Of a stretch of 48,928 nt of DNA, positions 36,853 through 47,839 are shown one piece after another. Both the position numbers and the translations under genes were made by a program. Numbering within the stretch: the stretch's first letter is position 1; each line of letters starts with the position of its first letter. The stretch comes from Bacteroidales bacterium (GTDB taxonomy: Bacteria > Bacteroidota > Bacteroidia > Bacteroidales > P3). Below the pieces are notes generated by a model that had not been told where the DNA came from, searched no databases, and worked only from the letters and a program-made list of their open reading frames with translations. The DNA lies in NCBI GenBank assembly GCA_017428115.1, contig JAFRRK010000048.1:1-48928 (forward strand), given 5' to 3'.

Positions 36853-39171
36853 TTATTTTATTACGTATTTCATCAAAGTTGCTAAGGATAAGCCTTCTGG
36901 CTCAGCACTCAAATGACCCTTTTTTATTATTCCGTCAAGACTCATCTTGGAGATATTCCATCTGACATTCTTAAACTCTTTTTCAGGCTCTGTGTCAGCA
37001 ATATCAAAAACAACATAGTAGTCTGAGGTTGGAGAGTATAAACTAGAATAAGGCATTTTCCCCAAGACTGCTTTCGACATCACCCTCGGACCCCTGTTGC
37101 CCAGCCGCAGTAGGAGTTGCTTACTGTCGTTATGCAGCAAGACATATTTCGCTGTCGTGATTTCTTGTTTCAATCTCAAGGAGCCACTCTTTGTTCCTGT
37201 TCTGGTATTGTAAATCTTATTTTTGAGTATCCAATTTAAATGGTTCTCATCGCGAAATGATCCTACCAACACAAAAGTCTCCTCTGGTATCAAACTGCGA
37301 TTATCACCATAAGGCTCTGGCATAGATTCACTGACCGTAAATGGCTCTTCTTTATGGATTTCATAAGTATGATATGCCATACGCTCGCGCTGTGAGGCTC
37401 TGTTTAGCATGTGTTCCAATATGTCGTGCAAGAAGTGTTCAATCTCCTTTGAGTCCTGTTCAAATCTGTCCGGACTGAGACAAAACGCTCCCAATCCGGG
37501 TAACACCTCATGAAAGCCTCTAAGTCTTTTGTTTTCTGTTCCGGGATAAAGAATGTATGCTCCGCTGGTGCGACGGATTGCATCTTTGTAAGCATGCATC
37601 TTAAGCAGATCCACCCGTTTGTATATGCCTTTTTCCTCCTCAAGTTTTTCTTGATTCATAATCAGCTCATCTTCGGTTAGGCCTTCATTGTCACTATCAT
37701 TGAAAGTATGAACTTCATCTATGTCTTTGTCGTTAAGCAGAATCCTGTTCAGTTTGTACTTTGCATCAAAATGGACGTGAACGATGATGTCTTGCTTTTC
37801 TGCATCCTCTTCATTGATGCTTCCTGGCCATATCGATAGGGTGTAGTCTGGACGCATGTCGGTTGTCCACGAGCCGCTTCCATCTAATTGACCTGATCCT
37901 TTGAAAGTTCTGTTATAATACAGTTTGATTTTCAATGTGCGGGAGGCTTCACGAAATTCTCCACCCACCATTGTCATGCGGCCTTGTCTGAGTTCAAGAT
38001 TGATGTTGTCCTTGTCGGTTTTTACCAACTTCTTTTCATCTGCTTCTGTCAGTTCCAGATGGAATGTCTCTTTGACTATGTCGAGCAACTTGAAAAACAC
38101 CCAATACTCGTATAGTGCAGCCACATTACGCATTCCTGCCCGATAAACATTGTCGCCGCCTTTCCACGTTATTTGTGCTGCTAGTTTTGACATCATCCAG
38201 GCCTGCAACACTTCCCTGTAGCCGTCTTTCCTTTGCAATGCAGGACTGTTCAGTGTCATGACCTGCAGGTTAGCCACCTCAAGGAAGAAACTGCGGCTCA
38301 GCCATCCTGTCAGTTTCTTGGCTGTCAGCTCAGCCTCGTTTTTCAGCCTTGGGCTGGCATTGTCGCATTGCTGGATAGTGCTGCAAAACGAAGCAAACGA
38401 TTGCAATACATATTTTACGAAACGGTTTTCAGCCACATCGATAGTGTCTCTCTTATAGGAGACATTCAGTCTGCGTGGTACACTTTCAATACCCAGGCCA
38501 TCACTTAATGGCAGTCGGTTCTTGCTGGATGCAATCTGTTTTATTTCGTGTCGGCCAAGTCTTTTTACAGCACAGATGTCTTTTTCCACGGTCGTCCCTG
38601 TCCACTTGTGGATAGGATTGTAGAATATCTTGTTCTGGGCTTCTTCAAACTCTTCGCTGTCCACCAAAGACTTCATAAAAGCAAATTGCTGGTATAGCGT
38701 CTTTCCGTCTTCATTGACATCTACTTCAAACCGTTGTGTGACAGGTGCACCTTGCATCATCACCAAATCCGTAAAATGTCGAGTGATGTCGTGAAGCATG
38801 CTACGATAATCCTCCCTGTAATCCACTTTTACGGAACGCACCTCAAAGCTCACTTCCGTCTCAAAGCCCGATTGATTGGCAACAGGCAAAGTCAGGCAGC
38901 CGACATAGATGCCTGTCTTAATCAACCCTCTCGAAGGCGTACTTTTTGATGGGCGAACAAGTTCATGCTCTTTAAAGTAGTACCCAACTGCTGGCCCATG
39001 CTCACCTTGAAACTCATACTCATAATCCTCCCCCTCAACCAACTGCCATCTCGCTTCACCCAAATCATCAGCCTGCTCCTCCTCAAACACTTTCGCATTC
39101 GATGACAGAGGGTATATTGTCAGTCTTACACCTTCCAGTTTGTTGATGGGTATTACGAGAGGCTTATCCAT
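36853..39171 (-). CDS. DUF2357 PD-(D/E)XK nuclease, McrC/LlaJI-type restriction subunit
   Basis: 772 residues. Residues 1-330 are beta-rich and then helical (VSYKRDTIDVAENRFVKYVLQSF, the DUF2357 core). A conserved YEYWVFFKL (354-362) precedes the nuclease core: RPDYTLSIW (440-448) gives PD at 441-442 and HFDAKYKL (468-475) gives the D-x-K. This is the catalytic PD-(D/E)XK pattern of nucleases that act with a McrB-like NTPase, as in LlaJI.R2-like or McrC-like partners. The last 150 residues carry beta hairpins, possibly DNA-binding. The gene is last in the operon, 34 bp after a DUF1016 fragment. It should cut DNA when the NTPase partner translocates on unmethylated (restriction) or methylated (type IV) sites. 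Confidence 0.8.
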   Translation of the reverse strand: MDKPLVIPINKLEGVRLTIYPLSSNAKVFEEEQADDLGEARWQLVEGEDYEYEFQGEHGPAVGYYFKEHELVRPSKSTPSRGLIKTGIYVGCLTLPVANQSGFETEVSFEVRSVKVDYREDYRSMLHDITRHFTDLVMMQGAPVTQRFEVDVNEDGKTLYQQFAFMKSLVDSEEFEEAQNKIFYNPIHKWTGTTVEKDICAVKRLGRHEIKQIASSKNRLPLSDGLGIESVPRRLNVSYKRDTIDVAENRFVKYVLQSFASFCSTIQQCDNASPRLKNEAELTAKKLTGWLSRSFFLEVANLQVMTLNSPALQRKDGYREVLQAWMMSKLAAQITWKGGDNVYRAGMRNVAALYEYWVFFKLLDIVKETFHLELTEADEKKLVKTDKDNINLELRQGRMTMVGGEFREASRTLKIKLYYNRTFKGSGQLDGSGSWTTDMRPDYTLSIWPGSINEEDAEKQDIIVHVHFDAKYKLNRILLNDKDIDEVHTFNDSDNEGLTEDELIMNQEKLEEEKGIYKRVDLLKMHAYKDAIRRTSGAYILYPGTENKRLRGFHEVLPGLGAFCLSPDRFEQDSKEIEHFLHDILEHMLNRASQRERMAYHTYEIHKEEPFTVSESMPEPYGDNRSLIPEETFVLVGSFRDENHLNWILKNKIYNTRTGTKSGSLRLKQEITTAKYVLLHNDSKQLLLRLGNRGPRVMSKAVLGKMPYSSLYSPTSDYYVVFDIADTEPEKEFKNVRWNISKMSLDGIIKKGHLSAEPEGLSLATLMKYVIK

Positions 39172-39205
39172 ACTATATCAGTATCGTCTTTACTATGTTG
39201 CGTAA

Positions 39206-39574
39206 TCAGATTAATTTGTCAGACATCTGACATATTGAATCGGATTTGTCAGATGTCTGAAAATTTGGATACATCAGGTAAAACTTACGCATATTGTTCA
39301 GATTGGGACGACTGTATCCGCGCCCTACTTTTGCTCTGAGTATTCTGGCAAGATTAGCCAATAGCGATGTCCCGTATTTGGCGCGGGCATTGCCTTGCTG
39401 CTCAAATTCCACGATATGTTGCCCTATTCTCCAATAGGTTGTCTTCATGGTCTCATTGATGCTGATAGCCAAAGCCAATCTGCTTTCTTCAATCACTCGT
39501 ACAATCCTATCGGCAAGAGTCAGCAGTTCCAAATCTGGCAACGCCACCTCTTTTTTCATTATTCCATTTGCCAT
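39206..39574 (-). CDS. stand-alone DUF1016 N-terminal domain (truncated YhcG-like)
   Basis: 122 residues matching the DUF1016_N domain: LTLADRIVRVIEESRLALAI, then TYWRIGQHIVEFEQQGNARAKYGTSLLANL, then RGYSRPNLNNMRKFYLMYP. Full YhcG-type proteins continue with a PD-(D/E)XK nuclease domain of about 180 residues; here the protein stops soon after, with an odd Asp/Ser-rich end (FQTSDKSDSICQMSDKLI). Its spacing is tight (14 bp after the McrB-like gene, 34 bp before the nuclease gene), so it may be retained as a helper. It could also be debris of an insertion. Confidence 0.75.
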   Translation of the reverse strand: MANGIMKKEVALPDLELLTLADRIVRVIEESRLALAISINETMKTTYWRIGQHIVEFEQQGNARAKYGTSLLANLARILRAKVGRGYSRPNLNNMRKFYLMYPNFQTSDKSDSICQMSDKLI

Positions 39575-39588
39575 ACTCTAATCAGTTA

Positions 39589-41259
39589 TTAGGCTTCTGC
39601 AAAACTAGTAAATCCGTTGTACACCACAGCGTGGTACATTCGTTGAATCTTCTCGGCCGACTCAGGATATTTGAAATCGGCCACATTGTACTCAGCATCT
39701 ATTTCTTTGGCCACGCCGTCTTTCAGACAGAGTTTCCACATAGCAGTTAGCACGGTCACCAATTTCTTTTTGGAGCCATGCAGTTTGGGGAGTAATTTTT
39801 GCAAGATGGCGGTGTCAATAGCTTTTTCTTTCTGTAGTCCGTCCTTATCGTCACCAGAAAAGTGGAGATAACGGCATATTTCATTCACCGTGCGGTAGCC
39901 AAACTCAGCATTTACCTGCTTCAATTCCTTGAAGAAAGATAGTAAAATATCTTTTTCCTCACCATTCTTTATCTCAATTTGCGACTTTGCTTTCTCTACA
40001 AAATCCACAGCCATATCAGCGCAGGCCGAGTAGGCCTTTTCAAGGTGGATATCTTTTTTCTCGTCGAGATATTGCTTCATCTCCTCTGGTGCAATCTTGA
40101 ACTCAATCACATTGGCGCGATCAAGCACCTTGGGGCTGAACATATAAGTGGTTTCATCCACATTGATGGTGCCGATGATAAACACATTCTTGGGGAGTGA
40201 TATTTCTGCTGGTACATCCTCGCCACCATCCCATAGTTTTATTTTCTCTCCCGACTCCATTGCACTGAGGAAGTCAGCAAAGTAACGCTCCACCACGCTG
40301 AGGTTCATCTCGTCGAGAATCAAGAAATAGGGTTTTGTGGGATCGTATTCAGCACGCATCAGCAATTGCAATACGCCGCTTTCTGGCATCACATATTCGC
40401 CACTTCTCAACGCATTGGGATAACCCAGCAACGGCTCGCGGTTTGTCCAATCCGCCCCGATTGAAACCGTGCAAACCTGCTCCTCAATATTCTCGCTCAT
40501 ACATTTGGCAAAAGCCAACGCCAACTGCGTCTTCCCCGAACCCGCCAAACCACTCAGTATAACAAAAGGCTTTGCCAACAAAGAATAGGCAAGGCGTTTG
40601 ATAAGAGTATCAGAATATATGAGACCGGTGGAGAGAATGTTTGCAATAACAGATGTTAATTGAAACGGTTGATATGTTTCAATTGTTTCTGAGGGAATCA
40701 TAGAACGCCACATTAGTGAGCGTTGCTTACTTGTAATCCCTCGGTATTCCATTGGATGATCTGGATTGACGATAGTTGCGCTAAAATGCAATTGAGATTG
40801 ATTTTGAATAGAAATATCATGTACAAACCAACATCCTTCAGGTGAACAGCCTATAGCTTCTTGCATTTTATCAATGCAAGACTGATTTGAGATGCCATTA
40901 TACGTAATGTATGGTGCATAACTAATAATCAATCTCCCGTCATGACTTTTAGAATGTTCTCGAACAAGTAATAGAACAAATTGAGAATCATCAATTTTTA
41001 TTTTATTAATAAATATCTCATGGAAAAGAGAGCATGTAATGACTTCTCTGTCACTGCTTCCGGCAGAAATATCCAATTTATCTCTTTCAGAAACACTCTT
41101 ATATGTCATACCGATAACCATTTCAACCACTTCTGGTCTGAAGTCATCTATACGACATTTTCTAGAATCATTCTGACCGATTGAGGTTCCCCATGCTGGT
41201 GTTGCTGTTTTGCCTTCAATTTTTGAATTGAAGAACATTGAAGTAATATCTACCTTCAT
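39589..41259 (-). CDS. McrB-like AAA+ NTPase, restriction subunit
   Basis: 556 residues. The N-terminal 200 residues are a specificity-type domain. The motor domain has Walker A GLAGSGKT (237-244), Walker B FLILDEMN (312-319), a sensor segment GTINVDET (363-370) and an arginine-finger-like KVLDRAN (377-383). The sensor/arginine pattern G-T-I-N-V-D-E-T fits McrB, and the family hydrolyses GTP or ATP to move DNA. The start overlaps the upstream methylase gene as ATGA. With DUF2357 nuclease it forms the restriction half of a LlaJI-like system. Confidence 0.85.
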   Translation of the reverse strand: MKVDITSMFFNSKIEGKTATPAWGTSIGQNDSRKCRIDDFRPEVVEMVIGMTYKSVSERDKLDISAGSSDREVITCSLFHEIFINKIKIDDSQFVLLLVREHSKSHDGRLIISYAPYITYNGISNQSCIDKMQEAIGCSPEGCWFVHDISIQNQSQLHFSATIVNPDHPMEYRGITSKQRSLMWRSMIPSETIETYQPFQLTSVIANILSTGLIYSDTLIKRLAYSLLAKPFVILSGLAGSGKTQLALAFAKCMSENIEEQVCTVSIGADWTNREPLLGYPNALRSGEYVMPESGVLQLLMRAEYDPTKPYFLILDEMNLSVVERYFADFLSAMESGEKIKLWDGGEDVPAEISLPKNVFIIGTINVDETTYMFSPKVLDRANVIEFKIAPEEMKQYLDEKKDIHLEKAYSACADMAVDFVEKAKSQIEIKNGEEKDILLSFFKELKQVNAEFGYRTVNEICRYLHFSGDDKDGLQKEKAIDTAILQKLLPKLHGSKKKLVTVLTAMWKLCLKDGVAKEIDAEYNVADFKYPESAEKIQRMYHAVVYNGFTSFAEA

Positions 41260-42332
41260 AATAGTTGAAAGAAAATGTGATTTAATAATATTCCAACAAG
41301 ATTAACATCCCACCCATTGCCAGCTCTTCGCCCTAGTTTTGTATAGTTTTGAGTTGGAGGGAAGAGGATTTCGTTATTAATTCCATCCATGTGGAATCCC
41401 ATAAGACGGAAGTGTTCATCTAAAGATAGCTTTCTGAAGCGTTCTTCCCCATTTTGCATTGGCTCAATAATGCGAATGACGTTATGTTCAGGAGGAGTGA
41501 CTGTCATGCAGATTCTGTCATAACGAATTTTCCGATTGTATATATCATAGCAAAGAGGTTCATCAACATCAAAAATGTCATTATGATGTATTTCGTGTAT
41601 TCGAGCAATTTGTCTCTGTGTTTTATATAAGTCAGGTGATGGATTTGGGTCAAGAAAATCAGCCAAATAACCTTGTAAAGGTTCTTCAGGTGGTACCAAG
41701 TTGAATTTTTCTGGTAACTGCCCCAAATACCCAAATATCCAAAGACGTTCTCTTGTTTGTGGAATACCATAATCTTTAGAATTAAGCACGGCATATCTGG
41801 TATCATATCCTATTCTGTGAAGCTCTTCTAAAATAATATCAAATGTGGCTCTCATCTTCCCTGTTAGCAGCCCCTTTACATTCTCCAGAAGAATGTACTG
41901 CGGCTGTTTGACTTCGCAAATTCTGATAATGTCGCCAAAAAGAGTACCACGCCCCCTTTCGTCATCCTGTCCTTGCCTTTTTCCTACAGTCGAAAAAGGT
42001 TGACATGGGAATCCTCCTGTAAATAAATCGAAATCAGGGCAACGTCGGCTATTGGGGTCTATTTGAGTAATGTCACCCAAGTTGCGAACATTTGGAAAAT
42101 TATAGTGGTATAGTTCAATAGCGTCCTCATCAACCTCCGAATAACCAACTACGCGATGTCGAACACCTGAACGTCTCAATCCAAAAGTCGCACCACCATA
42201 TCCGGCAAAACCTTCAAATACTCTGATAATATTATGTCTCGGTAATCTATGCATTATATTTTCTGTAGTTTTCAAAATGAATGTCCAACAAATCCTTGTC
42301 GGGAAGGAATCGTTTGGGCGTAATTCCAACAT
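41256..42332 (-). CDS. DNA (cytosine-5) methyltransferase 2
   Basis: 358 residues. C5-methylase motifs: I FEGFAGYGGATFG (39-51), IV GFPCQPFS with catalytic C110, VI LLENVKG, VIII QTRERLW (192-198), and X-like GNGWDVNLVG near the end; the target-recognition region lies between VIII and IX. The ATG at 42332 directly follows the stop of the caspase-like gene (TAAATG), but 26 residues precede the usual family start; the internal ATG at 42254 (MHRLPRHNII) is an alternative. Together with the second methylase it should protect an asymmetric site, as two C5 enzymes do in LlaJI. Confidence 0.9.
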   Translation of the reverse strand: MLELRPNDSFPTRICWTFILKTTENIMHRLPRHNIIRVFEGFAGYGGATFGLRRSGVRHRVVGYSEVDEDAIELYHYNFPNVRNLGDITQIDPNSRRCPDFDLFTGGFPCQPFSTVGKRQGQDDERGRGTLFGDIIRICEVKQPQYILLENVKGLLTGKMRATFDIILEELHRIGYDTRYAVLNSKDYGIPQTRERLWIFGYLGQLPEKFNLVPPEEPLQGYLADFLDPNPSPDLYKTQRQIARIHEIHHNDIFDVDEPLCYDIYNRKIRYDRICMTVTPPEHNVIRIIEPMQNGEERFRKLSLDEHFRLMGFHMDGINNEILFPPTQNYTKLGRRAGNGWDVNLVGILLNHIFFQLL

Positions 42333-42929
42333 TTACATTAGGTCGCTTAAGGATATACCTCCGTCGCCAGCAAAAACGAGACTTTCCTTGTTGTGCAGGA
42401 GTAGTATTTTATCTTTAAAAGGTAACGTATCTATAACTTTGTCGTATTTATTCAACATTATCTTGTAAGCAACATCCTTGGATTGCCCATTAAGCAGTTG
42501 TTTTAGTCCTTCGATTGCACAGTCAAGAAAAGCGTCCTCCTGTTCTCCAACATAAAAAGGGGCAGAATAACCTACAAAGAGACTTAATCCGATACGCATT
42601 AGATTTGGACATAGGTTCTGAGCACACAAACATGAAATAGAGTAGAAACCTTTATTTGCAAAGTTGTAGTTTGTTGTGCGAGTTGTAACTACATCTGCAT
42701 CATTCTCGTTATATACTCCATCTTCATCGCCGTGTGCAGCGATGAAACAGATTTTGTGGTCAGCCATAGGAGGAATGACATTGGCCTCTGTCAGTTCTGG
42801 TACGCCAACATAAGTATAATTATGGTTGTTGTCAACGCATATTTGTCGTGCTTCATCAGCGCATGACTGCATGAAGTTGTGCAAGACTGTACCAGGGTCA
42901 TTGTTGCATGCTATAAAGATATTAGCCAT
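42333..42929 (-). CDS. putative caspase/CHAT-like cysteine protease
   Basis: 198 residues, no signal peptide. The likely catalytic pair is H66 in KICFIAAHGDEDG (59-71) and C100 in FYSISCLCAQ (95-104), which fits the order His-Gly ... (S/D)-x-C of the caspase/CHAT fold. After it come SLFVGYSAPFYV and the helix EDAFLDCAIEGLKQLLNGQSKDVAYKIM, as seen after the catalytic Cys in CHAT-type proteins (repetition of a small/aromatic strand and an A-x-x-F helix). The protein is short: only a protease core. It overlaps the receiver-domain gene by 8 bp, so the two are probably made together; the receiver protein and kinase may control it. Identification rests on my reading of motifs and needs a profile or structure search. 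Confidence 0.5.
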   Translation of the reverse strand: MANIFIACNNDPGTVLHNFMQSCADEARQICVDNNHNYTYVGVPELTEANVIPPMADHKICFIAAHGDEDGVYNENDADVVTTRTTNYNFANKGFYSISCLCAQNLCPNLMRIGLSLFVGYSAPFYVGEQEDAFLDCAIEGLKQLLNGQSKDVAYKIMLNKYDKVIDTLPFKDKILLLHNKESLVFAGDGGISLSDLM

Positions 42930-43539
42930 TTGACTCCTCCGACTTTAGAAGTTGGTAAATATAGTATTCGTTCACCATCCCTTCAAATAATTTTCCGACC
43001 TCAGTCTGGAGTCGTAATTGCTTTAACATTTCCGCCCATGTGTATGAGTTGCCACCAGCCTCGCGGAAAGCAAATTTATCAGCATCTTCTGGATGTTTCA
43101 GTATCCATTTTTCAAGTATGCAGTCAAAACGTGTTTTCCAAAGATTTTTGATGCGATCAATAAGTTTGGAGGCATCAGTAAATGTACCATTATTTCTATC
43201 AAAAAACCAGATGTAGTCCTCATTAATCATTTCAATAATATCAAGACTGGATATTTGACTTATAGCATTTGCTGACATCATAACAATGTACAGTAATGAT
43301 GTCTTTTCTCTAATCTGCCTGAGGACGTTGATCCCTTGTAACCCATAGCCGTCAAATTTACAATCAAGAAAGACAATCATTTGGTTATTCAGGTTATTCA
43401 AAACATAGGTTAGTCCTTCCGATGGGTCTTTGAACACAGACAGGTCCGCATCTTTCTGGAACTTCCCTATAGACCGCACAAAAGGGTTATCCAACCCTTC
43501 TCTCATATTATCATCAATAAAAACTATTTTAAATGACAT
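42922..43539 (-). CDS. receiver-domain protein (response regulator-like)
   Basis: 205 residues. The receiver fold: KIVFIDDNM with the acidic pair D9-D10, IVFLDCKFDGYGLQG with phosphoacceptor D59, and YIVMMSA with S89 at the Thr/Ser switch. The usual switch Lys is missing (WFFDRNNGTF in its place). The C-terminal 75 residues (KTRFDCILEKWILKHPEDADKF, then REAGGNSYTWAEMLKQLRLQTEVGKLFEGMVNEYYIYQLL) are helical with no helix-turn-helix, suggesting a protein-interaction output rather than DNA binding. It lies 4 bp after the kinase-like gene and overlaps the caspase-like gene. Confidence 0.8.
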   Translation of the reverse strand: MSFKIVFIDDNMREGLDNPFVRSIGKFQKDADLSVFKDPSEGLTYVLNNLNNQMIVFLDCKFDGYGLQGINVLRQIREKTSLLYIVMMSANAISQISSLDIIEMINEDYIWFFDRNNGTFTDASKLIDRIKNLWKTRFDCILEKWILKHPEDADKFAFREAGGNSYTWAEMLKQLRLQTEVGKLFEGMVNEYYIYQLLKSEESNG

Positions 43540-43543
43540 GGTA

Positions 43544-45652
43544 TTATTTTTTAAAAGGTAATACTATCTTTATGGTTGTACCAATTGAACCAAATTCACT
43601 ATCAACAATTGATACCGATCCTTTTAAGGATTCTACACGTGTTTTGACAATATATAGACCAACGCCTGCACCACCTTGTTCTTGAGTTGTAGTGTTGTAT
43701 AGACCAAAAACCCATTCTCTTTTTTCAATAGGGATACCGTTCCCATTGTCAGAGATCTTTATGACAAGATCTGCGTCCTCACTAACAACAGAACATCTAA
43801 TCATTTTTTGATCTACATCTTTAAGTGCTTTAATCGAGTTGTCTAAGATGTTTTGAAGAATATCTCTAAAGAATTGTCGATGTGTGTTGCGTAAGGTTAT
43901 TCTTTCGGGAATAATAATGTCCGTATTGATATTGTTGTTATCAAATTGTGGCTGATACTCATTAAATATTTCTCGAATTGTATCATCAAGTTGAATGTCT
44001 TCCGGTTGGATGTTAGATTGGGAATAGCTCAACATATAATCAATCACCCGATTAGCATTTTTAAATTCGGAGAACATCTCTTTAGCATATCTTGCAAATA
44101 AGGCATCTTCTTCCGGGTTTGGGAAGAACATGTTGAAATATTCAACCCTATCTCGTATTTTGTTTAATGTGGTACGGACGGCATGGGTAATATGTATTGC
44201 ATATTCTTGCAATGACATTATACTCATGTAGATACTCTCTTTTCTGGCAAATTCTTTTTCGGCTTCTTTTTTGTTTCGAATAGCCGTTTTTACAGCCTTC
44301 CCTGTTTTTTTTGCTTGTTCTACTACAGGATCAAGTCGATCTTTTAGATTGGGGTTTTGTTGGGCAATTGTTTCGACAGACGAAATGAACGATTGTAAAT
44401 CTTGCCCCGCAGACTCTAAAGTATCGCTATCTTTTTTACGTTTTTCATCTCGAATATGTTTCTTGTAGTTTTCAATAGAATCAAGTTGCGTTATGATGAA
44501 GTCCTTAAGATCGTGGTATTCACCGTTATCCACAAAATCTTGGCGATTGGTGGCATCAATAATATTGGGGTTTTCTTGTTTCGATATCTCAACAAACCCA
44601 ATGATTTCTCTAGTGCTTACTCTATCGAAAAGGTTTCTCCATAATCTTTTGTCAATACCAAGAATGTCCCTTTTTTTATCATTATCAGATTCGTTTTCAG
44701 CAAAAGGTGTGGTGATGATGCCGTCGCGGTAGATTTTAATGCCATCAATTTGGCTATTAGGGAACTCCTTCCGATAGCGTCTGCGTGCAGCATCATCAAA
44801 ATAGTATACTTTCATTGAAATGCCGCCAAATGACTTTATCGGAACTTGACGAATGTCAATTATACCAGTTTCTTCGTTATAAAAGGATGTATCCTGAGTT
44901 TTGTTTAATGGATGAAAATCAAGTGAGAAATTGATGGTTGCAATATTGACATCCTCTATAGATTTAGTAGCAATTGTATTTATTCCGTATTCAGGAGCAA
45001 TGACTCTTATGGTCAATGGATAGGAGAGATTTGTAAATGGAGATACGAGTTTGGATGCCTCTACAATAAAGCGATTAATGTCATCTTTAAGCCAGATCTC
45101 TCGGATTTTGGTTATTTTGAGAGTTGTGCCATGCTCGGAAAGAGTCTGAGCTGGAGTGTAATCATAGTAATTATCAATGTCCGTAAATAGTGTTAATTGG
45201 CTGTTGGCCGTTTCAGTTTGGTTATAATATGAGGTCCAGTCTATTACAACATTCAGCCATTGATCATAATTGTTTTGCTTGGTAATGATTTTTACATTGT
45301 CACCAAGTTTGTCCACGGCGAACCGGCCTATTCCTTTTTCTCCCACGCATTTTCTGTTAAATGGAGATGGTGTATATGGATTCGATCGTTTATTGGAAGT
45401 CCCAATAACCATCCACTTGTCTCGTATATCAGAAAAAGACATACCAAAACCGTCATCAACAATACTAATGGATGAGTTGTCGTTGATTGTGCCTACATTA
45501 CCAAATGTTATTGTGACTTCTGTGGCATTAGCGTCATAACAATTTTTGACCAATTCAAATAAAGCAGTAACTCGGTCGGTAATCAAGTCACGACCAATGA
45601 GTCTAAATGTGCTTACATCAAAACGCCATTTTAATGTTCCGGATTCTCGCAT
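43544..45652 (-). CDS. dual GHKL ATPase: HSP90/MORC-like N-domain plus histidine-kinase C-domain
   Basis: 702 residues with two ATP-binding GHKL modules. N-terminal: LFELVKNCYDANAT (31-44, N box), VDDGFGMS (65-72), GEKGIGRFAVDKLG (104-117), as in MutL/HSP90/MORC proteins, with a following beta-rich transducer domain to about 370. A coiled coil spans 380-470. C-terminal: a H-box-like helix AIHITHAVRTTLNKIRD with H490 in the position of the phospho-acceptor His (compare H-E-L-R-T-P-L), then RQFFRDILQNILDNSIKAL (592-610), SDNGNGIP (634-641) and GGAGVGLYIVK (660-670), a HATPase_c domain. No transmembrane segment. Downstream lies a receiver protein, so it likely phosphorylates D59 there; the N-domain would be a sensor/clamp. 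Confidence 0.85.
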   Translation of the reverse strand: MRESGTLKWRFDVSTFRLIGRDLITDRVTALFELVKNCYDANATEVTITFGNVGTINDNSSISIVDDGFGMSFSDIRDKWMVIGTSNKRSNPYTPSPFNRKCVGEKGIGRFAVDKLGDNVKIITKQNNYDQWLNVVIDWTSYYNQTETANSQLTLFTDIDNYYDYTPAQTLSEHGTTLKITKIREIWLKDDINRFIVEASKLVSPFTNLSYPLTIRVIAPEYGINTIATKSIEDVNIATINFSLDFHPLNKTQDTSFYNEETGIIDIRQVPIKSFGGISMKVYYFDDAARRRYRKEFPNSQIDGIKIYRDGIITTPFAENESDNDKKRDILGIDKRLWRNLFDRVSTREIIGFVEISKQENPNIIDATNRQDFVDNGEYHDLKDFIITQLDSIENYKKHIRDEKRKKDSDTLESAGQDLQSFISSVETIAQQNPNLKDRLDPVVEQAKKTGKAVKTAIRNKKEAEKEFARKESIYMSIMSLQEYAIHITHAVRTTLNKIRDRVEYFNMFFPNPEEDALFARYAKEMFSEFKNANRVIDYMLSYSQSNIQPEDIQLDDTIREIFNEYQPQFDNNNINTDIIIPERITLRNTHRQFFRDILQNILDNSIKALKDVDQKMIRCSVVSEDADLVIKISDNGNGIPIEKREWVFGLYNTTTQEQGGAGVGLYIVKTRVESLKGSVSIVDSEFGSIGTTIKIVLPFKK

Positions 45653-45656
45653 AAAC

Positions 45657-46760
45657 TTAATTATTTCTTATATGTATTTTGATGCTTTCTGCGATGATCT
45701 CTCCTAATCTTGGTGGTACGGCATTCCCGATATAGCGGGATGCTTTTGTTAATGAAACTTCCTGTTCATTAGGGAAGAACCTATAGGATGTCGGAAATGT
45801 TTGGAATAGAGCTGCTTCTCTGGCTGAAATGGCCCTATCTTGAATAGGATGCCCAAAACGTCCGTTTCCAATACCTGTACAAAGTGTGGTCATGGTTGGC
45901 GCTGGCTCATCCCAAACCATTCGGCCATACACACTTCCAAAACTTTTACCACTTTTTCTTTTATGGCAATCCAACAACAATTCTTTCGGCCAATCTTTCC
46001 AACTGCCACCATAAGGCGTGACGTTAATTCTTCTTAGATTTAAATCAGATAAGGCTCTACATCTATGTAAAGGATCTGATATGCATGCCTCCCCCGCTTT
46101 TAATGGTGGTAGTTTTTCGATAGTATCACGAACAGTCACATATTCTTCTTTTTTATGTGTTGGAGGGATTAATTCAATTGTACCTAAACGAGAAGCTAGT
46201 AGAACTAATCGTTTCCGGGTTTGAGGAATGCCGTAATCTGGGCAATATACTACTTGATAATCCACTTGGTAGCCTTCCTCGTGCAACACTTTTACAAAAT
46301 CTGCCAAAACGGATTTCAATTTAAATGAAGCTATTGCAGGTACATTCTCCATCGTAACAATTTCAGGATGTATTTCTTTTACAATACGTCCAAATTCGTA
46401 CAAAAGATTGTATTTGTCTTTATCTTTGTGTTTGTTTGTATGTGCGTATGTGGAAAATGGCTGACAAGGCGCACAACCAGCGAGAACCCGAATGGCATTT
46501 TTCTTCTTTGAATAAAGTCTTTGGATTTCTTCGCCAGTTATCTTCTTTACATCTTTATAAAAAAAATGTCCACCCGTGTTGGTCTCGTATGCATATTTGC
46601 AAGTCCAGTCTGTATCAAATCCCGCAAGGATGTTAAAACCCGCAGTCTTCATGCCGTAGCTTAAGCCGCCGATTCCACAAAAGAGATCCACAACCTCAAT
46701 TTGGGGAAGTCTACCGCGCCTTTTATGTCCTCTTTCTACTTCCATAATAATCTTGCTCAT
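45657..46760 (-). CDS. DNA (cytosine-5) methyltransferase 1
   Basis: 367 residues. Motif I VVDLFCGIGGLSYG (23-36), motif IV GCAPCQPFS with catalytic C99, motif VI TMENVPA (136-142), motif VIII QTRKRLVLL (180-188), then a 110-residue target-recognition stretch and the end motif ASRYIGNAVPPRLG. All invariant residues are present. Its start overlaps the AAA gene by ATGA and its stop is 4 bp from the GHKL gene. The recognition sequence cannot be read from sequence. Confidence 0.93.
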   Translation of the reverse strand: MSKIIMEVERGHKRRGRLPQIEVVDLFCGIGGLSYGMKTAGFNILAGFDTDWTCKYAYETNTGGHFFYKDVKKITGEEIQRLYSKKKNAIRVLAGCAPCQPFSTYAHTNKHKDKDKYNLLYEFGRIVKEIHPEIVTMENVPAIASFKLKSVLADFVKVLHEEGYQVDYQVVYCPDYGIPQTRKRLVLLASRLGTIELIPPTHKKEEYVTVRDTIEKLPPLKAGEACISDPLHRCRALSDLNLRRINVTPYGGSWKDWPKELLLDCHKRKSGKSFGSVYGRMVWDEPAPTMTTLCTGIGNGRFGHPIQDRAISAREAALFQTFPTSYRFFPNEQEVSLTKASRYIGNAVPPRLGEIIAESIKIHIRNN

Positions 46761-47839
46761 AGGACAACGCTTCTTATCTCAATATTATTCTTGCAGGCTT
46801 CGGCAAGCCCCTCGTAGGGAAGGCGGTAGGCTTGATGTCCTTTGAGTTTCGTCTGCTCCAGTGTATAAAGGCTTAGTTCGTTTCTATATTCGGCGTGCTC
46901 TTCCAGCATTTCATTCAGGCGGTATAGCGTTTCTTTGCTGTGGGTCGTCACAAACACCTGTTTGTTGGTGCTCACAGCAAGGGCGAAAATGGCTTCCCAT
47001 AGCTTTTTGTATGCGGAATAGTGCAAGCCGTTTTCAATCTCATCAATCAGCAGGATGTTGTTCAAAGGATTGGCTGAGGCAGCGACAATGTTCAGATAAC
47101 GCCGCAGGCCGTCGCCCATCATGTTGACTGCCAGCAACTGGTCAATGCCTTCCAAGCCGATGTATGCCACACTATTTAGTATCTCCCATGTGGTGATGCG
47201 GCTGTCGAAGAGTTTCAGCTGCTCGGTTACGATATCCTTCCTCTTCCGTTTTGCCAGCTCAATCAAATCATTAGCGGGGGTGCTTCCCCCAAGGTCAGAA
47301 GACAAATAAACTGCACTGTTCTTTTCGAGATAGTTCTCAGCTGGTTTCTTGTTTGAGTTAAATCCTTGCTGGTTAACAGTGATGCTGCTCTCATAACTGT
47401 TTTTTTGGTTGCAGGATTCAATATCAAAAACCATCTTCAGCGTATTCTGGAAGGTCTTTGTCTCAGAAGTGGGTAGTTGTCCTGCCGGCATATCGGACTG
47501 CGACTTTTCGTCAAAGACATAGGTCAAATATAAAGCAAGACGACGCTTGGTTTCATCGAACATCTCGGATGAAATCTCTGGACTCACTTTCAAGTCGTAT
47601 TTATGAAACATATAACCAAGGTCTAATAAACTGCTGTGGTAACTGCGTGACCTAATAGAATTGATGGTTTGGGGCAGGTCAGGATTGGACATTCCCACTA
47701 GCAACAACAGGCATTCCAAAATAGAACTCTTTCCAGAACTATTCTGCCCAAGAAAGATATTGACCCTCGAAAAATCCTCTATTCTCAGGTGGTCGATGCC
47801 TCTGAAATTCTTTATTTCGATATTTTTGAATCCGTCCAT
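46757..47839 (-). CDS. AAA (ABC/SMC-like) ATPase of the defence operon
   Basis: 360 residues. Walker A GQNSSGKSS (31-39), a central helical insertion (70-210), a conserved MGDGLRRYL (241-249), Walker B LLIDEIENGLHY (263-274) and the His of VFVTTHSKE (296-303). It resembles AAA_15/AAA_21 ATPases of OLD/PARIS-like systems but lacks a TOPRIM nuclease domain; with only 360 residues it would have to act with a partner. It is the first gene of the nine-gene operon, driven by a TATTTTTG -7 box at 47934-47941. Confidence 0.85.
   Translation of the reverse strand: MDGFKNIEIKNFRGIDHLRIEDFSRVNIFLGQNSSGKSSILECLLLLVGMSNPDLPQTINSIRSRSYHSSLLDLGYMFHKYDLKVSPEISSEMFDETKRRLALYLTYVFDEKSQSDMPAGQLPTSETKTFQNTLKMVFDIESCNQKNSYESSITVNQQGFNSNKKPAENYLEKNSAVYLSSDLGGSTPANDLIELAKRKRKDIVTEQLKLFDSRITTWEILNSVAYIGLEGIDQLLAVNMMGDGLRRYLNIVAASANPLNNILLIDEIENGLHYSAYKKLWEAIFALAVSTNKQVFVTTHSKETLYRLNEMLEEHAEYRNELSLYTLEQTKLKGHQAYRLPYEGLAEACKNNIEIRSVVL

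Follow-up and report, generated by a model that had tools for sequence, protein, structure and literature searches.

A conserved four-gene cassette places a putative phosphorelay and a predicted caspase-like protease behind a DNA methyltransferase. The unit consists of Dcm1, a fusion of MORC-like ATPase and histidine kinase, a receiver and a clan-CD protease. It runs from position 46760 to 42333 in a gut-type bacterium (Bacteroidales bacterium, GCA_017428115.1, contig JAFRRK010000048.1). The window, the whole stretch of DNA analysed, is 48,928 nt long. An open reading frame check identified nine co-directional minus-strand genes, g1 to g9, between positions 36853 and 47839 (Table 1). From g1 to g9 the junctions measure -4, +4, +4, -8, 0, -4, +14 and +34, negative values being overlaps. 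Hence, the coordinates and close spacing (at most 34 bp) reported in an earlier sequence-only reading of this DNA were confirmed. The locus sits in a variable region and sister species carry different modules there.

Table 1. Genes, domains and key residues of the locus, by position in the window.
Feature	Position	Strand	Description	Matches and motifs
g1	46757..47839	-	AAA ATPase (AbiLi/OLD-like), separate neighbouring module	Pfam AAA_15/21; PADLOC AbiLi 4.2e-63
g2 (Dcm1)	45657..46760	-	C5-cytosine DNA methyltransferase, 367 aa	PCQ and ENV motifs; PF00145 8.3e-60
g3	43544..45652	-	MORC-like GHKL ATPase fused to histidine kinase, 702 aa	HATPase_c_3 and HATPase_c
g3, MORC-like ATPase part (presumed sensor)	44540..45625	-	residues 10-371
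g3, DHp (phospho-acceptor helix pair)	44027..44227	-	residues 476-542; acceptor H490 at 44183-44185
g3, kinase catalytic (CA) domain	43547..44011	-	residues 548-702
g4	42922..43539	-	stand-alone receiver with C-terminal extension of ~75 residues; acceptor D59 at 43363-43365
g5	42333..42929	-	predicted clan-CD (caspase/CHAT/gingipain-like) cysteine peptidase, 198 aa; H66 at 42732-42734, C100 at 42630-42632
g6 (Dcm2)	41256..42332	-	second C5 methyltransferase, opens the exchangeable downstream restriction module	PF00145 5.6e-60
g7	39589..41259	-	McrB-like NTPase, downstream module	Walker A at 237, NVDE at 366; PADLOC PDC-M26A 2e-48; Pfam AAA_5 below cut-off
g8	39206..39574	-	DUF1016_N truncated remnant, 122 aa	PF17761 4.8e-24
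g9	36853..39171	-	McrC-like DUF2357 and PD-(D/E)XK nuclease, downstream module	PF09823 3.2e-37; PF04411 (PDDEXK_7) 1.3e-28

Relatives were collected by a scan for the kinase only, which favours near relatives, and figures rest on the best 80 of 119. Among these 80 loci, g2-g3-g4-g5 were complete and in the same order in 77. Two more are cut by contig ends and one lacks the protease. The proteases of 78 cassette loci fell into 73 clusters at 90% identity. In 55 of the 78 the receiver gene runs 1-8 nt into the protease gene, taking the first possible start codons. The partners are also co-inherited. Across 74 of the 78 loci (L014, L023, L030 and L031 were omitted from the distance matrices) r was 0.91 for kinase and receiver, 0.85 for receiver and protease, 0.78 for kinase and protease and 0.73 for Dcm and kinase. 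In each of five gene pairs, 0 of 999 permutations reached the observed r; the sequences are related, so this is descriptive. Some records are likely duplicates: L030, L040 and L063 of L008, L009 and L010, and L153 and L154 of L033 and L082. The block is conserved in other Bacteroidota, which contradicts confinement to a single genome, named earlier as the outcome that would speak against a system. The kinase-receiver-protease block had been drawn correctly but its boundary had not, since Dcm1 belongs to the conserved unit.

The protease was recognised by its fold. As a single protein, g5 had no match in Pfam, NCBIfam, PADLOC or the PDB. A profile of g5 and its relatives gave no significant match in the PDB (lectins at 0.04-0.05, caspases at 0.2-0.9), and Peptidase_C25 matched 2 of 80 members (best 6.2e-4). 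The predicted structure (pLDDT 97.8) has a clan-CD peptidase fold with a caspase-like alpha/beta core. It matches gingipain, SAVED-CHAT, separase and caspases; all comparisons of predicted models used VIA-align only. H66-G67 and C100 occur in 80/80 sequences and follow strands 60-64 and 94-98 of the model. The predicted fold identifies g5 as a putative caspase-like cysteine peptidase. This agrees with the earlier proposal of a caspase-like protein with a His-Cys pair, and C100 is a real codon. One candidate relative, L013 (genome G012, E 1.1e-4), has neither kinase nor receiver, was missed by a fuller profile and was taken as spurious. It is present in the first two alignments and was dropped from later ones. 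The protease of L023, cut by a contig end, was omitted from the fuller profile.

Alone, g4 matches Pfam Response_reg with E 0.0016, below the family cut-off. Among 81 aligned receivers Response_reg matches 71 at E<=0.01 (best 1.9e-11), and the g4 profile finds solved receivers (best 2.2e-10). D10, D59 and S/T89 are each present in 81/81 and K/R115 in 62/81. No DNA-binding output domain was recognised by Pfam in g4 or its relatives, and neither g4 nor g5 matched a PADLOC model at E<=0.01. The kinase alignment comprises 58 sequences, the window's g3 and those of 57 of the 78 cassette loci. HATPase_c_3 and HATPase_c are both present in 58/58. H490, N605, D635 and G637 are likewise invariant (58/58) and both ATP sites are intact. 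Hence, g3 and g4 together hold the phospho-acceptor His and Asp and the intact ATP site of a two-component system. H490 and D59 are real codons, and the earlier assignments of a GHKL kinase and a receiver with these acceptors hold. The predicted fold of the g3 N-terminus matches MORC3 in structure comparison and is that of a MORC ATPase. The AF2 model of the whole protein is of moderate quality (pLDDT 78.2, pTM 0.63), and its MORC-to-kinase geometry is unsupported.

We give roughly even chances to g2-g5 being a methylation-linked defence in which a MORC sensor activates a protease through a phosphorelay. Dcm1 would label host DNA as self. The MORC-like half of g3 would act as an ATP-driven DNA clamp or sensor, silent on methylated DNA and firing on foreign or unmethylated DNA. 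Firing would cause the kinase half to autophosphorylate at H490, and the phosphate would pass to D59 of g4. Phosphorylated g4 may then release or activate g5 through its C-terminal extension, and g5 would cut cellular or phage proteins so that the infected cell is halted. We infer this phosphotransfer, the receiver-protease contact, the sensed signal, the cleaved target and the defence outcome. Self/non-self recognition of the restriction type would thus be coupled to proteolysis, instead of or besides DNA cutting, and nuclease modules (McrBC-like, HNH, Vsr) would be optional neighbours.

The trigger is where the closest alternative differs. In 78 of the 80 loci (best 80 of 119) the gene directly before the kinase is a methylase, also where McrBC-like genes are not nearby. 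Since Dcm1 travels with the kinase-receiver-protease block even then, it is a cassette component; it may serve the McrBC-like module too. Across all loci, Dcm divergence tracks the MORC half of the kinase (r 0.77) more closely than the kinase half (0.61). Within clade 1 of the quick Dcm tree, correlations are 0.75 for MORC, 0.76 for the receiver and 0.76 for the protease; within clade 2 they are 0.59 for MORC, 0.61 for the coiled coil, 0.56 for the protease and 0.53 for the receiver. These values are similar across partners, so the Dcm-MORC edge vanishes inside the clades. Such unremarkable co-divergence would suit the same relay and protease answering to something other than methylation state, such as phage DNA ends, replication structures or nucleotide levels. 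Dcm1 would then be secondary, for instance by hiding the site on DNA that the sensor recognises. Consistent with this, the receiver and protease of L012 accompany a sacsin-like kinase with no adjoining methylase, and PMC8011034 offers the speculation that HATPase_c_3 has to do with NTP levels. However, the near-constant upstream methylase, seen also in all 6 of 6 cassettes of a divergent lineage B, is then hard to explain, and we regard a non-methylation trigger as rather unlikely.

Genes beyond the cassette vary. Among 66 testable loci, 21 have no co-directional gene adjoining it; Algibacter pectinivorans DSM 25730 (L059) is an example in a named strain. No Pfam family recurred in more than 2 of 43 scanned neighbours. 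R-M-like neighbours of stand-alone loci among the 43 were Vsr (1), GmrSD (1), PDDEXK_4 (1) and ResIII (2). A convergent Vsr gene lies 1 bp away in L084 and a Vsr gene upstream in L047. Because of these free-standing loci and the lack of a recurrent neighbour, the protease appears to be an output in its own right. Of the 61 loci where 2.5 kb or more follows the cassette, 29 carry at least one of McrB, McrC, HNH, Vsr or an additional Dcm on the cassette's strand within 4.5 kb (an ORF of L015 was annotated once as Dcm-like and once as McrC-like). These common R-M neighbours, and a proposal in PMC8011034 (2021) that such genes control R-M systems, would fit a regulatory module in which relay and protease adjust how much of the methylase or of a neighbouring restriction enzyme is made or degraded. 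That reading is improbable given the 21 of 66 free-standing loci, downstream partners that differ by locus and a receiver with no recognised DNA-binding output.

The variable genes after the cassette, with the same 21 loci, also mean that g6-g9 are a separate LlaJI/McrBC-like module. An McrB-like gene is downstream in 24 loci (among the best 80 of 119); two further methylases precede it in 4 (L025, L029, L075, L082), one in 7 and none in 13. The window shows the pattern of the 7. Dcm2 has at most 29% identity to other rows of the methylase tree. Relative to its counterpart in L114 (350 aa), g8 has ~655 bp missing; the DUF1016_N domain noted before is therefore genuine but belongs to a truncated remnant. 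A g1-type gene lies upstream of the cassette in 6 of 78 loci. The operon had been matched to LlaJI. In its favour, g7 and g9 resemble R1 (McrB-like) and R2 (PD-(D/E)XK) beside a C5 methylase, as described in the available portion of PMC1459862. Dcm1 and Dcm2 as the methylase pair was not supported: Dcm1 assorts with the kinase cassette, which would leave Dcm2 alone for restriction unless the two modules share Dcm1. LlaJI is a four-gene cluster, and the same portion of PMC1459862 mentions no kinase, receiver or protease. LlaJI as the primary unit of the cassette was rejected, given the pairing of Dcm1 with the kinase (78/80) and the loci without an adjoining gene, although the 7 loci with the window's pattern would allow Dcm1 to be shared.

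The cassette is rare, since the g5 profile matched 1 of 395 genomes in a wider phylum sample, the source genome only. The fuller profile matched 13 of 393 genomes of the order. Six were known (the source genome, G070 and four cassette genomes), three carry lineage-B cassettes (G332, G139, G059) and four (G156, G264, G172, G265) have a g5 match without adjoining kinase or receiver. Lineage B retains Dcm-HK-receiver-protease; the HG and SC motifs occur in 6/6, and some receivers of this lineage could be identified only once aligned. A Stenotrophomonas rhizophila plasmid carries all four genes; its protease matches the lineage-B profile at 3.9e-12 and gives no match to the lineage-A profile at E<=1. 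Used as a single protein, g5 itself had no match in plasmids. More distant kinases of the same genus do not always come with the protease: of nine other genomes with a kinase match (E<=1e-20), 5 carry it and 4 lack it (L148, L149, L151, L152). Kinase and receiver are followed by HNH in L149 and viral L096. In L114, of the same genus, a Dcm is followed by a paraMORC that lacks the kinase part and by an HNH_2 nuclease, and this Dcm groups among cassette Dcms in the quick tree. The output slot is thus exchangeable.

Self-maintenance offers a further alternative. An addiction or anti-loss guard would monitor host methylation and kill cells that lose Dcm1 or the cassette, with no primary anti-phage role. 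R-M modules are discussed as selfish elements in PMC8011034, and an integrase or transposase adjoins a few stand-alone cassettes. Catalytic residues that stay intact across many lineages and scarcity on plasmids (a related kinase at E<=1e-30 in 2 of 72,556 records) make a guard very improbable. That unrelated defence genes came to lie together in an island by chance, as a variable region with other modules in sister species might suggest, has almost no probability, because the order is kept in 77 of 80 loci and the genes overlap.

SAVED-CHAT is activated by cyclic nucleotides; activation by a receiver is predicted here. Detocs has a fused effector receiver. It is a three-gene two-component defence system (excerpts of the review PMC11249213), and kinase, receiver and effector genes are present here too. 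Its best-described effector is an ATP-cleaving PNP, and those excerpts mention no DNA methylase or clan-CD protease; the effector in our cassette has a predicted clan-CD peptidase fold instead. Csx29, a CHAT protease, is RNA-activated according to the available part of PMC10028731, in contrast to the receiver activation predicted for g5. Excerpts of Iyer 2008 (PMC2292703) on paraMORC/MORC R-M systems and of PMC12137116 on VcSduA/Shedu, with a paraMORC3-type domain, describe a GHKL ATPase of MORC-like type that neighbours methylases or is fused to an effector. Partners in those excerpts are nucleases and helicases, whereas here they are a kinase, receiver and protease. VcSduA is a precedent for our preferred reading: a GHKL domain fused to a nuclease, it is anti-phage, and a variant made to disrupt ATP hydrolysis loses activity (PMC12137116, same excerpt).

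The nearest published arrangement is HEF_HK/Response_reg_2. Linkage of kinase, receiver and C5 methylase with paraMORC domains was published in 2021 (Bellieny-Rabelo, PMC8011034). There, a HATPase_c_3, DHp and HATPase_c kinase lies beside a receiver-like protein, with a C5 methylase upstream and Vsr often near; our cassette has the same kinase architecture adjoining a receiver and C5 methylase. The families differ. HEF_HK (PF19191) matched 0 of 58 kinases at E<=0.01 (positive control, the L107 kinase, 9.1e-28). Response_reg_2 (PF19192) matched 0 of 81 receivers at E<=0.01 and nothing in the source genome. Its receiver is long, 600 aa in PMC8011034 and 538-548 aa in L107-L109. In HEF_HK-type loci, g5 had no profile match in L097-L100 and no phmmer match in L107-L109, and the words caspase, protease and peptidase are absent from the text of PMC8011034. 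We found no methylase-kinase-receiver-protease system in the openly licensed (CC) PMC literature. Within that literature, the sequence-only reading was right that no such combination had been described once the protease is counted, but the kinase-receiver-C5-methylase part was already in print.

In the usual picture of restriction-modification, a methylase is set against a nuclease. In 78 of 80 loci (best 80 of 119), what lies behind a restriction-type methylase and a MORC-like sensor is a putative phosphorelay ending in a predicted caspase-like protease. A broader form of our preferred reading, to which we give slightly less than even chances, is nuclease-free, methylation-gated immunity. A C5 methylase would define self, the MORC-kinase would read non-self and the relay would drive a caspase-like protease to kill or arrest the cell, with interchangeable outputs (protease, HNH, possibly HEPN). 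Single mutants are easy to design at the invariant residues, and the stand-alone cassettes are four-gene test objects. If true, recognition of self by DNA methylation can lead to arrest or death of the cell through proteolysis, and a receiver would be a new way of switching on a caspase-like enzyme. The cassette would then unite, in a four-gene bacterial system, parts familiar mainly from chromatin silencing in eukaryotes (MORC), from bacterial signalling and from apoptosis.

The four-gene cassette, encoding a C5 methylase (Dcm1), a MORC-like ATPase/histidine kinase, a stand-alone receiver and a caspase-like protease (g2 to g5), is conserved outside its own genome, which goes in favour of the sequence-only reading. 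A g5 search of 393 genomes of the order matched seven, its own included, and four of these keep the methylase-kinase-receiver-g5 order intact. The G012 match was taken as spurious, and the one in G070 is the methylase-free locus with a sacsin-like kinase described below. Because selection for g5 was to be avoided, we scanned GTDB genomes with the kinase alone. This found 119 relatives, and the best 80 of the 119 loci were analysed. Among these best 80, a receiver and g5 relative lie 3' of the kinase in 78, a C5 methylase lies directly upstream in 78, and all four genes occur in 77. Locus L031 begins, and L090 stops, within the kinase. The genuine exception is L093 (an archaeal MAG, 29% identity), where kinase and receiver precede the methylase and a Vsr gene is on the opposite strand. 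Judged by record title, the 80 loci are mostly from Bacteroidota, with one from Spirochaetes and one from a Kapaibacterium MAG; at 90% identity, their 78 proteases fall into 73 clusters.

The cassette is almost certainly one functional unit. In 55 of 78 loci, the genes for receiver and protease share 1-8 nt, counted from the first possible start codons. Across 74 loci, again from the best 80 of 119, distance correlations are 0.91 for kinase-receiver, 0.85 for receiver-protease, 0.78 for kinase-protease, 0.73 for methylase-kinase and 0.54 for methylase-protease. Overall, methylase divergence is followed most closely by the MORC half of the kinase (0.77, versus 0.61 for DHp-CA). Within methylase clades the MORC half is no longer the best tracker.

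In the window, the nine contiguous minus-strand genes reported from sequence alone were confirmed (see table). Family scans also upheld the assignments made there, save three. The single g4 protein scored below the cut-off for Response_reg, as did the McrB-like NTPase g7 for AAA_5, and g5 had no match in these scans. Hence, we used relatives to test these weak assignments. The DUF1016_N protein g8 (122 aa) is a truncated remnant; its counterpart in the same-genus locus L114 has 350 aa. Where the two genes correspond, their DNA identity is 93%; ~655 bp are absent from the window. The McrB-like proteins of the two loci are 90% identical from residue ~189 onward and unaligned before it, a pattern that suggests a swapped specificity domain. 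The g7 motif is NVDE; classical McrB is described with NxxD in the consulted part of PMC11090510.

Coordinates of the gene run, its parts and related loci
Feature	Source	Position	Remark
Nine-gene run	window, minus strand	47839-36853	gaps/overlaps -8 to +34
g1, AAA ATPase	window	46757-47839	
g7, McrB-like	window	39589-41259	
g8, DUF1016_N	window	39206-39574	
McrB-like gene	L114	16164-17864	
Kinase-receiver-protease	L012	7060-11849	
Receiver and caspase-like genes	L156	10093-11423	CP031730.1

The cassette had been read as embedded in an LlaJI-type operon. This was not supported. At least 2.5 kb of downstream sequence is available for 61 cassette loci: an McrB-like gene lies there in 21, and 32 have no same-strand McrB, McrC, HNH, Vsr or Dcm within 4.5 kb, in a census by local profiles that other families may escape. 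Under a stricter criterion, the cassette has no co-directional gene next to it in 21 of 66 testable loci. These 21 have 65 listed neighbours. No Pfam family recurred in more than two of the 43 scanned (Vsr, GmrSD and PDDEXK_4 once each, ResIII twice). Where McrB lies downstream (24 loci), two further methylases precede it in four, one in seven, as in the window, and none in 13. This variation in downstream content and methylase number identifies g6-g9 as a separate LlaJI/McrBC-like module, which may also use Dcm1. Upstream, g1 is an AbiLi-like neighbour, of a type found in 6 of 78 cassette loci (best 80 of 119). A DUF3226-type gene (~210 aa) lies between the AbiLi-like gene and methylase in L026, L068, L069, L077 and L114, and is absent beside g1. 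In L034, a second kinase-profile match (624 aa) lies directly upstream of the cassette methylase.

Natural exchanges show a recurring sensor kinase and receiver whose output differs from locus to locus. Four same-genus genomes carry related modules near the window's flanking genes. L110, L111 and L113 hold a divergent cassette, lineage B. In G802 (L114) the order is AAA, DUF3226, Dcm, a paraMORC that lacks the kinase part, HNH_2 nuclease and then McrB. The L114 methylase is 69% identical to Dcm1 and, in a quick tree, groups with 21 cassette methylases in a starred 22-row set. L110 occupies the same slot as the window's module; in L111, L113 and L114 the island lies across a thioesterase gene. 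A fifth locus, L112, is cut off within an AAA gene. Further lineage B cassettes are L143, L144 and L147, and the proteases of all six lineage B loci retain the HG and SC motifs. Receivers of L144 and L147 had no profile match and were assigned by alignment. Nor is the protease universal: nine other same-genus genomes have a kinase match, with the protease in five (G783, G809, G808, G799, G787) and without it in four (G810, G804, G806, G802). Of the loci in these four, L149 is Dcm-kinase-receiver-HNH_2, its receiver below cut-off (1.1e-5). Genes 3' of the kinases in L151 and L152 had no family match.

Viral contig L096 encodes kinase-receiver-HNH (Pfam HNH 5.2e-5, receiver assigned by eye), and viral contig L094 a Dcm-kinase pair with a receiver-like protein bearing a weak HEPN-like tail. 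A Stenotrophomonas rhizophila plasmid (L156) has the complete set; its record leaves receiver and caspase-like genes unannotated. In L012 (genome G070), a 1172-aa histidine kinase of sacsin-like type (PF25794) is followed by a receiver and g5-like protease, with no methylase adjoining: the cassette's output beneath a different GHKL sensor. Contig 325 of G070 (L150) holds a second, apparently broken copy. Weak g5-profile matches in L142, L145 and L146, the last within a protein of 760 aa that carries an Ig-like domain, have no neighbouring kinase or receiver.

In the best-supported reading, to which we give even chances, a methylation-linked sensor kinase (g3) would switch on the caspase-like protease (g5) via the stand-alone receiver (g4). 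The counts of methylases before McrB and of same-genus kinases lacking a protease lowered these chances slightly. Gene set, gene order and intact residues were observed directly, and the folds are those of protein models; phosphotransfer, activation, trigger, target and defence role we infer. The grades given here are judgements, not computed values. The predicted relay is very probably active, and activity of the predicted protease is just as strongly expected. A defence role is likely. A cell-stopping output is marginally favoured, while a methylation-gated trigger could equally be right or wrong. The trigger is the least certain step, because methylase-MORC tracking is lost within methylase clades and L012 has no adjoining methylase.

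Several components have precedents in the consulted parts of the literature: paraMORCs in R-M systems (PMC2292703), paraMORC-HEPN fusions (PMC3710099), VcSduA (PMC12137116), LlaJI (PMC1459862), CoCoNuT receivers with CARD-like domains (PMC11090510) and Detocs (review PMC11249213). Receivers in conflict systems are treated in PMC7159879 and PMC8195603, whose consulted parts do not mention the cassette's gene set. The claim that no such system had been described survives for the four-gene set, since we found no methylase-kinase-receiver-protease system in the CC-licensed library searched. It fails for kinase-receiver-methylase linkage with HATPase_c_3, already published according to the part of PMC8011034 consulted. 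However, the domain families of those systems are matched by 0/58 kinases and 0/81 receivers here, and the words caspase, protease and peptidase are absent from the text of that paper. We conclude that the cassette belongs with paraMORC-kinase/receiver R-M systems, and that what is new is its regular fourth part, a protease family that matched nothing in the libraries.
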